DNA of 64,000 nucleotides. Origin: Pseudomonas nicosulfuronedens. Lineage in GTDB: Bacteria > Pseudomonadota > Gammaproteobacteria > Pseudomonadales > Pseudomonadaceae. Shown piece after piece: positions 11,439-56,861 of this stretch; the stretch's first letter is position 1; the number at the start of each line of letters is the position of its first letter. A program made the position numbers and the translations under genes. Under the pieces are notes generated by a model. It was not told the DNA's origin, searched no databases, and saw only the letters and a program-made list of their open reading frames with translations. The stretch lies in the NCBI RefSeq assembly GCF_005877905.1, contig NZ_SWDV01000003.1, forward strand, positions 186,001 through 250,000, written 5' to 3'.

Positions 11439-11515
11439 GTAGGAGCGAGCTTGCTCGCGAACGGTACTTTCCGGCGGCTCGGAATCGTGCGGTTCGCGAG
11501 CAAGCTCGCTCCTAC
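11439..11515. repeat. REPIN, family A copy 2
   Basis: Inverted pair of the GTAGGAGCGAGCTTGCTCGCGAA unit with its reverse complement ending CTCGCTCCTAC. Lies between the acylase stop and the PPK2 gene, and could stabilise the acylase mRNA 3' end. Confidence 0.85.
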
Positions 11516-12565: not shown

Positions 12566-12639
12566 GTAGGAGCGAGCAAGCTCGCGAACCTGGCCGATTG
12601 TCGCGGCGTCAGGCGGTTCGCGAGCAAGCTCGCTCCTAC
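12566..12639. repeat. REPIN, family A copy 3 (left arm variant)
   Basis: Same unit as the other family A copies, but the left arm reads GCGAGCAAGCTCGC in place of GCGAGCTTGCTCGC, so the central bases of that arm's loop are inverted. The right arm is canonical. Lies between ppk2 and the PiT transporter gene. Confidence 0.85.
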
Positions 12640-14432: not shown

Positions 14433-14513
14433 GTAGGATGGGTAGAGCGCAGCGATACCCATGCTGTCGGCGCACGGAATCGATGGGTATCGCTGCGCTC
14501 CACGCCATCCTAC
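14433..14513. repeat. REPIN, family B copy 2
   Basis: Inverted pair GTAGGATGGGTAGAGCGCAG...CTGCGCTCCACGCCATCCTAC. It fills the middle of the 330-bp gap between the PiT gene and the glutamine-synthetase-like gene; the rest of the gap holds the terminator above and presumably a promoter I cannot place. Confidence 0.85.
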
Positions 14514-14667
14514 GGCGTGCTCATCCCGTTACTCCGCTCGGTGGCTTTAGCAACGGCCCCATTCTGGCCCGCTTGAAATATTGAACGCGTGGTGCGTATT
14601 TTGTACGGGCTCGCGCACCTCGCGCGGCGTCCTGTGACAAGGACAAGAAGAACAAGGATAAGAAGTC

Positions 14668-22272: not shown

Positions 22273-22427
22273 GATCGCGGACGAAGTCCGCTCCTGTGCA
22301 GGGATCGGCCTGTGTAGGAGCGGATCCTATCCGCGATCCGCCGACAAGCCCGGCGCCGGGCGTGGCCCTGTTTTTTCTGGAACGGCGGAATCTCGTGCTC
22401 GGGAATCGCGGACAAGGTCCGCTCCTA
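22273..22427. repeat. Cluster of three REP-like units (family C)
   Basis: Three copies of a third REP type: ATCGCGGACGAAGTCCGCTCCTG (22273-22295), an inverted GTAGGAGCGGATCCTATCCGCGAT (22314-22337), and ATCGCGGACAAGGTCCGCTCCTAC (22404-22427). They occupy the first half of the 443-bp cheR-flgB gap. The cores differ from families A and B but share the GTAGGAGC end. Confidence 0.75.
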
Positions 22428-22453
22428 CAGGGACGGTTCTGCGCCGAGCAAGG

Positions 22454-32075: not shown

Positions 32076-32768
32076 ATGAACCGTTCCCACCTCCTTCCGC
32101 TGCTGGCCATCGCCGCGTTGGCAGGGTGCGTGAGCCCTCCGCCCAAGCCGGACGATCCCTATTACGCTCCGGTGCTGCCGCGCACGCCTGCGCCGGCCGC
32201 CCAGAACAACGGATCGATCTACCAGGCCGGGTTCGAGAACAACCTCTACGGCGACCGCAAGGCCTTCCGCGTGGGTGACATCATCACCATCACCCTCAAC
32301 GAGAAGACCCAGGCCAGCAAGAAAGCCAACTCGGACATCTCCAAGGACAGCAGCAACAAGCTCGGCCTGACCTCGATGTTCGGCAGCAGCCTGACCACCA
32401 ACAACCCGGTAGGCGGCGGCGACCTGAGCCTTTCCGCCGAGTACTCGGGCAACCGCGAAGCCAAGGGTGACAGCGCCGCCGGGCAGAGCAACAGCCTGAC
32501 GGGTTCGGTCACCGTGACCGTGGCCGATGTCATGCCCAACGGCATCCTCGCCGTGCGTGGCGAGAAGTGGATGACCCTGAACACCGGCAATGAGCTGGTG
32601 CGCATCGCTGGCCTGATTCGCGCCGACGACATCGCTACCGACAACACCGTGTCGTCCACCCGTGTGGCCGACGCGCGCATCACCTACTCGGGCACCGGTG
32701 CGTTCGCCGATGCGAGCCAACCGGGCTGGTTCGATCGCTTCTTCCTCAGCCCGCTGTTCCCGTTCTGA
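32076..32768 (+). CDS. flgH: FlgH, L-ring lipoprotein
   Basis: A 230-residue outer-membrane lipoprotein. The lipobox LAGC ends at C18 ([17 protein letters not shown]). The conserved FlgH core is present ('[28 protein letters not shown]', '[33 protein letters not shown]'). It forms the L ring around the rod at the outer membrane. Its stop (32768) lies 24 bp before the REPIN that overlaps the start of flgI. Confidence 0.96.
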
Positions 32769-32782
32769 GCAGGGTGAATGTG

Positions 32783-33946
32783 ATGATCACTGTAGGAGCG
32801 AGCTTGCTCGCGAAGTCTCTGATCCGCCGGGTTCGCGAGCAAGCTAGCTCCTGCAGCCTGGTGCTGCTCTGTGCGTTGATGGTCGTGCCGGCCGCCCATG
32901 CCGAACGGCTCAAGGACATCGCCACCATCCAGGGCGTGCGCAATAACCAGTTGATCGGCTACGGCCTGGTCGTTGGCCTCAACGGTACGGGCGACCAGAC
33001 CACCCAGACGCCGTTCACCCTGCAGACCTTCAACAACATGCTGGCGCAGTTCGGCATCAAGGTGCCGGCCGGTTCGGGCAACGTGCAGCTGAAGAACGTC
33101 GCGGCGGTGTCCATCCATGCCGACCTGCCGCCTTTCTCCAAACCGGGCCAGGCCATCGACGTCACCGTCTCTTCCATCGGCAACGCCAAGAGCCTGCGCG
33201 GCGGCAGCCTGCTGATGACCCAGCTGAAGGGTATCGACGGTCAGACCTACGCCATCGCCCAGGGCAACCTGGTGGTCGGCGGCTTCGATGCCGAAGGCCG
33301 TGACGGCTCCAAGATCACTGTCAACGTGCCGTCGGCCGGTCGCATTCCTGCCGGTGCCACGGTCGAGCGTGCGGTGCCGAGCGGTTTCGACCAGGGCAAT
33401 ACCCTGACGCTGAACCTCAATCGCCCGGACTTCACCACCGCCAAGCACATCGTCGACCGCATCAATGAACTGCTCGGCCCGGGTGTCGCCCAGGCCGTAG
33501 ACGGCGGCTCGGTGCGCGTCAGCGCGCCGCTGGACCCGAACCAGCGCGTGGACTACATGTCCGTGCTGGAGAACCTCGACGTGCAGGCCGGCGAAGCCGT
33601 GGCCAAGGTCATCATCAACTCGCGCACCGGCACCATCGTGATTGGTCAGAACGTGCGCGTGTCGCCGGCCGCCGTGACCCATGGCAGCCTGACCGTGACC
33701 ATCACCGAAGACCCCATCGTCAGCCAGCCCGGCCCGTTCTCCAACGGCCAGACCGCCGTGGTGCCGCGCTCGAACGTGAGCGCCAACCAGGAAGCCAAGC
33801 CGATGTTCAAGTTCGGCCCCGGCACCACGCTGGATGAAATCGTACGCGCCGTTAACCAGGTGGGCGCCGCGCCCGGCGACCTGATGGCGATCCTCGAAGC
33901 CCTGAAACAGGCCGGCGCGTTGCAAGCCGACCTGATCGTGATCTGA
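32783..33946 (+). CDS. flgI: FlgI, P-ring protein, with REPIN-derived signal peptide
   Basis: A 387-residue periplasmic ring protein. The mature part begins [21 protein letters not shown] and is a standard FlgI to the end ([14 protein letters not shown]). The signal peptide is unusual: from the ATG at 32783 (AGGG at 32771-32774 as ribosome-binding site) it is about 40 residues, against about 20 in relatives. Residues 4-24 ([21 protein letters not shown]) are translated from a family A REPIN at 32792-32854, while only [17 protein letters not shown] forms the hydrophobic core and cleavage site. A GTG at 32774 is an alternative start. Function should be retained if the signal works. Confidence 0.93.
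32792..32854. repeat. REPIN, family A copy 4, inside the flgI coding sequence
   Basis: The left arm GTAGGAGCGAGCTTGCTCGCG is intact. The right arm reads GCGAGCAAGCTAGCTCCTGC, two changes from the canonical GCGAGCAAGCTCGCTCCTAC. At 63 bp it is shorter than the other family A pairs (74-78 bp). It is open in the flgI frame throughout. Confidence 0.88.
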
Positions 33947-51211: not shown

Positions 51212-51289
51212 GTAGGCGCGAGCTTGCTCGCGAACCGCTTAGCGCTGATGCCGTCGGTTGGTCTTGTTCGCGAGCAAGCTCGCTCCTAC
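51212..51289. repeat. REPIN, family A copy 5
   Basis: GTAGGCGCGAGCTTGCTCGCGAA (one change from canonical GTAGGAGCG) facing CGCGAGCAAGCTCGCTCCTAC. Lies in the 347-bp fleR-fliE gap with the terminator above and the fliE promoter below. Confidence 0.85.
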
Positions 51290-56774: not shown

Positions 56775-56861
56775 GTAGGATGGGTGGAGCTTGCGATACC
56801 CATCGTCTGGCAGTTCGCGGCGAGTTGCAGCATGGGTATCGCTGCGCTCCACCCATCCTAC
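56775..56861. repeat. REPIN, family B copy 3, between fliI and fliJ
   Basis: GTAGGATGGGTGGAGCTTGCGATACCCAT (left unit, 56775 on) facing ATGGGTATCGCTGCGCTCCACCCATCCTAC (right unit, to 56861). It occupies most of the 124-bp fliI-fliJ gap, where flagellar operons normally have almost no spacing. Confidence 0.88.

Follow-up and report, generated by a model that had tools for sequence, protein, structure and literature searches.

REP-Derived Codons in the FlgI Leader of Pseudomonas nicosulfuronedens and Its Relatives

Introduction

REPs of the GTAG and CGTC types, often arranged as dimers, can lie entirely within open reading frames, where many of them code for 20–30 residues (Di Nocera and others 2013, PMC3733652). 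The same paper describes different REPs at about the same recB site in two Xanthomonas species, and gives as a warning that many REPs at the start of an open reading frame may go untranslated. Its main text contains neither "signal peptide" nor "flagell" or "flg"; the gene list lies in the supplement. Mobile palindromes in frame inside genes are also known as the Rickettsia palindromic elements, with a length of about 150 bases (review PMC10969869). For Pseudomonas, REPINs are described as inverted arms with a spacer, present in hundreds of copies and forming a strong hairpin, and in SBW25, 14 of 1067 REP 16-mers overlap genes (PMC3116915, 2011).

The flgI locus of Pseudomonas nicosulfuronedens shares with the intragenic elements of PMC3733652 the presence of GTAG-type REPs in open reading frames, but here, one signal peptide is the recurrent site of three families, in 17 species. 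The Rickettsia elements are set apart by their description: they are longer and inhabit many unrelated genes, whereas a single place is concerned here, and the part involved is likely cut off with the signal. All structural traits of the Pseudomonas REPINs given above (PMC3116915) are present, the difference being that this copy lies in a coding frame. Among the literature matches listed, which covered few subscription papers, none reported a REP-coded flgI or a REPIN-built signal peptide, and the building of one protein's signal peptide by several REP families seems new. In our reading, GTAG-type REPs have probably landed repeatedly, and in a nearly neutral way, in the n-region of FlgI, where the gene is most tolerant; the copies kept would be those that leave the frame open and the signal functional.

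A Family A REPIN in the flgI Frame

The window, i.e., the whole stretch of 64,000 nucleotides analyzed here, contains flgI as a single open frame from the ATG at 32783 to 33946, closely following flgH. The product matches the NCBIfam model NF003676 (FlgI) with 477.5 bits (cut-off 300) and is that of an ordinary P-ring gene. As the original prediction held, a family A REPIN, 63 bases long (32792–32854), lies in this frame and makes up codons 4–24 of a 40-residue signal. The features of the locus and the other family A REPINs of the window are:

32076..32768, + strand: flgH, L-ring protein, directly upstream of flgI (NCBIfam NF001304, 348.2 bits, cut-off 247)
32771..32776, + strand: Shine-Dalgarno-like AGGGTG of flgI, from the sequence (for the ATG at 32783, the strongest pairing to the anti-SD tail has −8.5 kcal/mol)
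32783..32785, + strand: likely flgI start codon ATG (alternatives in frame: GTG at 32774 and 32780)
32792..32814, + strand: exact left arm of the family A REPIN, coding for VGASLLAK
32815..32831, + strand: REPIN spacer
32832..32854, + strand: right arm of the REPIN, two changes, coding with the preceding base for VREQASSC
32855..32902, + strand: hydrophobic core and cleavage region of the signal peptide, 16 residues (from signal features and alignment to solved FlgI chains)
32903..33946, + strand: mature FlgI (ERLKDIA...) and stop codon
3722..3799, strand not given: second family A REPIN, intergenic
11439..11515, strand not given: third family A REPIN, intergenic
12566..12639, strand not given: fourth family A REPIN, intergenic, left arm with two changes
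51212..51289, strand not given: fifth family A REPIN, intergenic, left arm with one change

The copy in flgI has the structure of the GTAG class, with two inverted arms and a spacer; its right end is eroded from CTAC to CTGC. The left arm equals the 23-base family A arm exactly. The right arm differs from it at two positions, whereas the four remaining right arms of the window show no change; this part of the original prediction stands, but the flgI copy is not alone in being altered, as two of the four other left arms (those at 12566 and 51212) are changed too. The extragenic position that is usual for REPINs, a common trait and not part of the element, does not apply to this copy inside the frame. 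The arm occurs in 488 exact copies in the 6.7-Mb genome and in none when its sequence is reversed; hence, it is not a product of chance. The flgI REPIN belongs to a dispersed Pseudomonas REP family. Its spacer with flanks was found, at up to three mismatches in the 25 genomes of the genus, in the window flgI, in the flgI leader of genome G008, and once elsewhere in each of G004 and G014; at this threshold, its own genome (G000) thus contains no donor for it.

Other repeats are present in the window. A family C arm with one mismatch lies between genes at 22406–22428, and a different dispersed palindromic repeat, GTAGGATGG...GCGCAGCGATACCCAT, occupies at least four places, including 2300–2339, 14433–14514, and 56828–56861. 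The genome also carries a second flgI-like gene (G000:C1:163190-164221; 56–57% protein identity), present in 18 of the 25 genus genomes.

REP Leaders in Related Genomes

By its relatives, the genome of the window stands near P. nitroreducens. FlgI was found in all 25 genus genomes, and all 25 leaders were read. REP-derived codons make up part of the leader in 17 of them, 15 being recognized by an arm search at up to two mismatches and two (G018 and G024) by alignment. This number does not fit the single event that had been proposed from the window. The leaders are distributed as follows:

Family A, both arms: G000 (window), G008, G014, G022
Family A, eroded: G001 (leader as in P. citronellolis LMG 18378), G003 (leader as in P. 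delhiensis)
Family B (GGGCCATGCCC): G004 (leader as in P. jinjuensis), G013 (leader as in P. schmalbachii)
Family C (CGCGGACAAAGTCCGCTCCTAC), one clear arm: G006, G007, G012, G015, G018, G020, G021, G023
Family C, eroded, assigned by eye: G024
Short leaders, no recognizable REP: G002, G005, G010, G011, G017
Type X leaders, no recognizable REP, length as most C leaders: G009, G016, G019

The family C arm is found at up to two mismatches in seven of the eight C genomes, G018 being more eroded, and the left half of the C leader is only weakly REP-like. The type X leaders were considered as eroded C leaders, of which they have the length and the upstream bases; as no REP bases can be recognized in them, they are counted as being without REP. 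Relatives lacking the REPIN and having the same residues by common descent, which would have spoken against the original prediction, were not seen: the nearest relatives have other n-regions.

Outside the genus, leaders were read in a collection of named loci (251 stretches with FlgI, of which the best 80 were kept, 13 of them belonging to the genus genomes) and in a family survey (248 genomes, including the 25 of the genus; FlgI in 242). In P. benzenivorans (L106), whose genome contains 67 B arms, the leader includes an in-frame family B REPIN in eroded form. The leader of P. carbonaria (L108), about 101 codons long, carries a fourth REP family, GAGTTCTGCTC; arms of this family number 11 in L108, 48 in L109, 3 in L081, and 0 in L106. 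No further REP leader was found among the other 67 named loci by exact arm ends, perfect stems, and reading of the leaders. No in-frame REP was recognized in the leaders of 80 Pseudomonadaceae genomes outside the genus, some of which are the same genomes as the named loci.

Several candidates were set aside. In protein, the P. mendocina group (L081, L103, L109, L110) has leaders resembling the REP leader of P. carbonaria (SARKAF or SARQAF vs. SAREAF), but the DNA match is too weak; a TCCTACAGCCTGGT stretch in L095, resembling the end of the window REP, was left uncounted, and an isolated GCTCCTGC in G063, whose leader is ordinary, was taken as chance. Very long FlgI leaders (58–101 codons), with CRRQFA...RGYRRRGANDW or a similar sequence as their last part ahead of the core, were seen in L081, L100, L103, L108, L109, and L110, i.e., in the P. 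mendocina group and its neighbors. G039 (L247) has a non-coding REP-like hairpin within a flgH-flgI gap of 328 bases. Among the 80 genomes outside the genus are also G054, with another long flgH-flgI gap, and G062, whose long leader contains no REP; for G046, the flgH end could not be located.

Distribution of the Leader Types on the Trees

On a tree of rpoB and gyrB, the leader types need nine changes when eroded leaders are pooled with intact ones, and the presence or absence of a REP needs four. Three pairs of sisters differ in type: G000 (A) and G015 (C) (100/97), G008 (A) and G007 (C) (98/97), and G022 (A) and G021 (C) (87/86). The trees of flgH and of mature flgI likewise scatter types A, C, and X, while the two B genomes stay together on all three trees, as do the two eroded A genomes. 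The latter pair (G001 and G003) is sister to the short-leader G002 on the rpoB+gyrB tree (98/98), which calls for a separate gain. From this distribution, we infer several insertion events rather than one.

The alternative of one old, inherited insertion, whose arms were converted by gene conversion with the abundant genomic REPs and whose leader alleles were exchanged by short-tract recombination, is possible but unlikely. The REPIN spacers of G000 and G008 are alike (three mismatches), and G014 and G022 share another, though on the tree, the sister of G000 and that of G008 are both C species; part of the pattern is thus due to shared copies, by descent or exchange. Leaders of types A, eroded A, B, and C agree in the distance from the REP end to the mature start (14–16 codons). 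Moreover, the window A leader and the B leader of G004 share ATGATCACTGTAGGAGCG, which could mean one old insertion with the arms changed later; the bases ATGATCACT are likewise common to G000 and G004. Against this, the short leaders of G002, G005, and G010 stand beside or outside the eroded A pair, the spacers differ among the two A kinds, B, and C, and the 120 bases flanking the leader on each side show no grouping for type A and a weak one for type X.

Signal Peptide and Start Codon

The window leader has the features of a Sec type I signal: a charge of +3 in the n-region, a KD9 of 3.36, and AHA before the mature end. Two of the five matched solved FlgI chains (346 and 343 residues, without leader) align from query residues 41 and 42, which are the residues paired with residues 1 and 2 of these chains. 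The REP-coded part should therefore be absent from the finished ring. Signal peptides with a long charged n-region before the core are present in autotransporters and similar proteins, and the window leader would resemble them in this respect.

The REPIN lengthens the signal, as had been supposed: the 40 residues of the window compare with 22–25 in the five short-leader species. Counted from the farthest ATG, the signals of the 17 REP species measure 34–41 residues, with an n-region charge of +1 to +4. An ATG ahead of the REP, whose strongest Shine-Dalgarno duplex lies between −7.3 and −13.0 kcal/mol, is present in 17 of 17 species, and the frame is open through the REP in all 17 leaders. Shifted by one base in frame, the family A arm gives a TAG, while its remaining two frames are open; with two of three arm frames open, the use of the frame is, by itself, weak evidence.

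If translation began behind or inside the REPIN, the element would be leader RNA or would itself bring the start. We hold such a misplaced start to be quite improbable. In the window, the starts behind the REPIN leave at most 14 residues without positive charge; a downstream start giving a normal short signal, which would have contradicted the original prediction, is absent. The upstream ATG, with the stronger Shine-Dalgarno duplex, is kept in all REP species. On the other side, the left arm itself holds an AGGAG and an in-frame TTG (32794–32806 in the window), a possible built-in start common to all four intact A leaders, with a Shine-Dalgarno duplex of −6.5 kcal/mol in each, and a simple codon-score gene caller chose a flgI start behind the REP in the window and in several other genomes.

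In both family B species, an ATG within the right arm would give a signal of 19 or 20 residues with one Arg, which makes an inner start a real possibility there. Its Shine-Dalgarno duplexes (−6.0 and −5.7 kcal/mol) compare with −9.9 and −8.2 kcal/mol for the ATG ahead. The family B repeat may thus bring its own start codon. In the named loci with family B leaders (L040 and L041), starting at the in-frame ATG of the right arm would make the signal normal in length, and P. benzenivorans (L106) also has an ATG at −19. For the REP leaders, we infer the use of the upstream start, export, and cleavage from these sequence features.

Constraint on the Leader and RNA Hairpin

The ratio pN/pS was determined on six pairs of the same leader type, chosen by the authors and using each genome once; the B pair was left out, since its spacers do not align. 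The leader before its last 45 bases, i.e., the REP and a few codons, shows 6 synonymous and 19 amino-acid changes (pN/pS 1.09), its last 45 bases 13.7 and 16.3 (0.45), and mature FlgI 222 and 38 (0.06). The difference between the REP-derived part and mature FlgI has a Fisher p of 2e-10. There is no detectable amino-acid constraint on the REP part, an argument against selection having finely shaped the changes of the window copy. Synonymous change is lower in the REP part (0.062) than in mature flgI (0.138); the REP part may, therefore, be young, have spread between species, or be constrained as DNA. Over the last 45 leader bases, a mean of 0.30 of the sites differ (120 pairs, 16 species of the window's clade), compared with 0.06 for mature flgI, 0.14 for its third positions, and 0.033 for the flgH signal in the same species. 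The whole FlgI signal, hence, evolves or recombines very fast.

The window flgI transcript forms a strong hairpin just behind the start: a stretch of 146 bases folds with −70.5 kcal/mol (z −4.6), and none of 200 shuffles was as low. The large stem begins 8 bases past the A of the ATG, and at the start region, the window is at least as open (mean unpaired 0.54) as the five short leaders (0.29–0.44). Over the same stretch, folding is far weaker in the C leaders (about −32 to −43 kcal/mol) than in the A and B leaders (−51 to −65 kcal/mol). In a longer fold, the Shine-Dalgarno of flgI pairs with bases behind the REPIN, by which translation might still be tuned.

An adaptive domestication, in which the two right-arm changes (Arg-Ser-Tyr to Ser-Ser-Cys) restored export and the hairpin tuned FlgI translation, had been suggested from the window; although a Tyr-to-Cys change at the same codon is also present in the C leader of G012 and in the leader of P. 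benzenivorans, it is very improbable in view of the Arg-Ser-Tyr kept in 13 of the 16 other REP leaders, the pN/pS of about 1 in the REP part, the changed arms of two non-coding REPINs in the window, and the position and varying strength of the hairpin.

REP Abundance and a Proposed Landing at flgI

Families A, B, and C are dispersed in the genus genomes. In all eight A or B species, the family found at flgI outnumbers each of the other two in the genome; this holds for none of the nine C species. Within 482 kb around flgI from the 25 genomes, 62 arms were detected at up to two mismatches, 21 in the flgI leader and 41 elsewhere. Seven arms were placed in or partly in a gene by a simple gene caller, all of them in the flgI leader; some of the flgI copies were called outside the gene, as the caller had chosen a later start. 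Matches to Y1_Tnp are present in 22 of the 25 genus genomes, with four in G000. None was found in G022, although its A leader is intact and its genome contains 451 A arms.

These repeats suggest the following course for the recurrent landing proposed above. As flgH and flgI are so tightly packed, a REPIN arriving at their junction would fall into the start of flgI. Its movement is probably due to a RAYT-type transposase. Since FlgI must be exported, in-frame insertions alone would survive, as the open frames of all 17 leaders suggest. The inserted palindrome would be translated from the old ATG into a long, positively charged n-region, and the protein would be exported by Sec and cleaved at AHA, judging from the signal features and the homologues. 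With the old hydrophobic core and AXA site kept, signal peptidase should remove the REP-coded residues and leave the P ring unchanged. The graded series of leaders points to different families landing, eroding, and being replaced by lineage.

A bolder version makes the front of flgI a true hot spot, to which the REP machinery of several families returns and where leader cassettes are swapped between species and diversify faster than synonymous sites; an export signal on which swimming depends would be remade from selfish DNA time and again, and in family B the repeat would even bring the start codon. We put this forward tentatively, as a doubtful extension.

Conclusions

For gene calling, the flgI leaders are a warning that a REP at the start of an open reading frame can be coding. 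The recurrent, nearly neutral landing of REPs in the FlgI n-region would provide a natural, replicated series for the passage of a non-coding mobile repeat into coding sequence, with intact, half-eroded, and barely recognizable stages, as well as the empty state in near relatives. Such a series indicates which part of a gene tolerates insertions.
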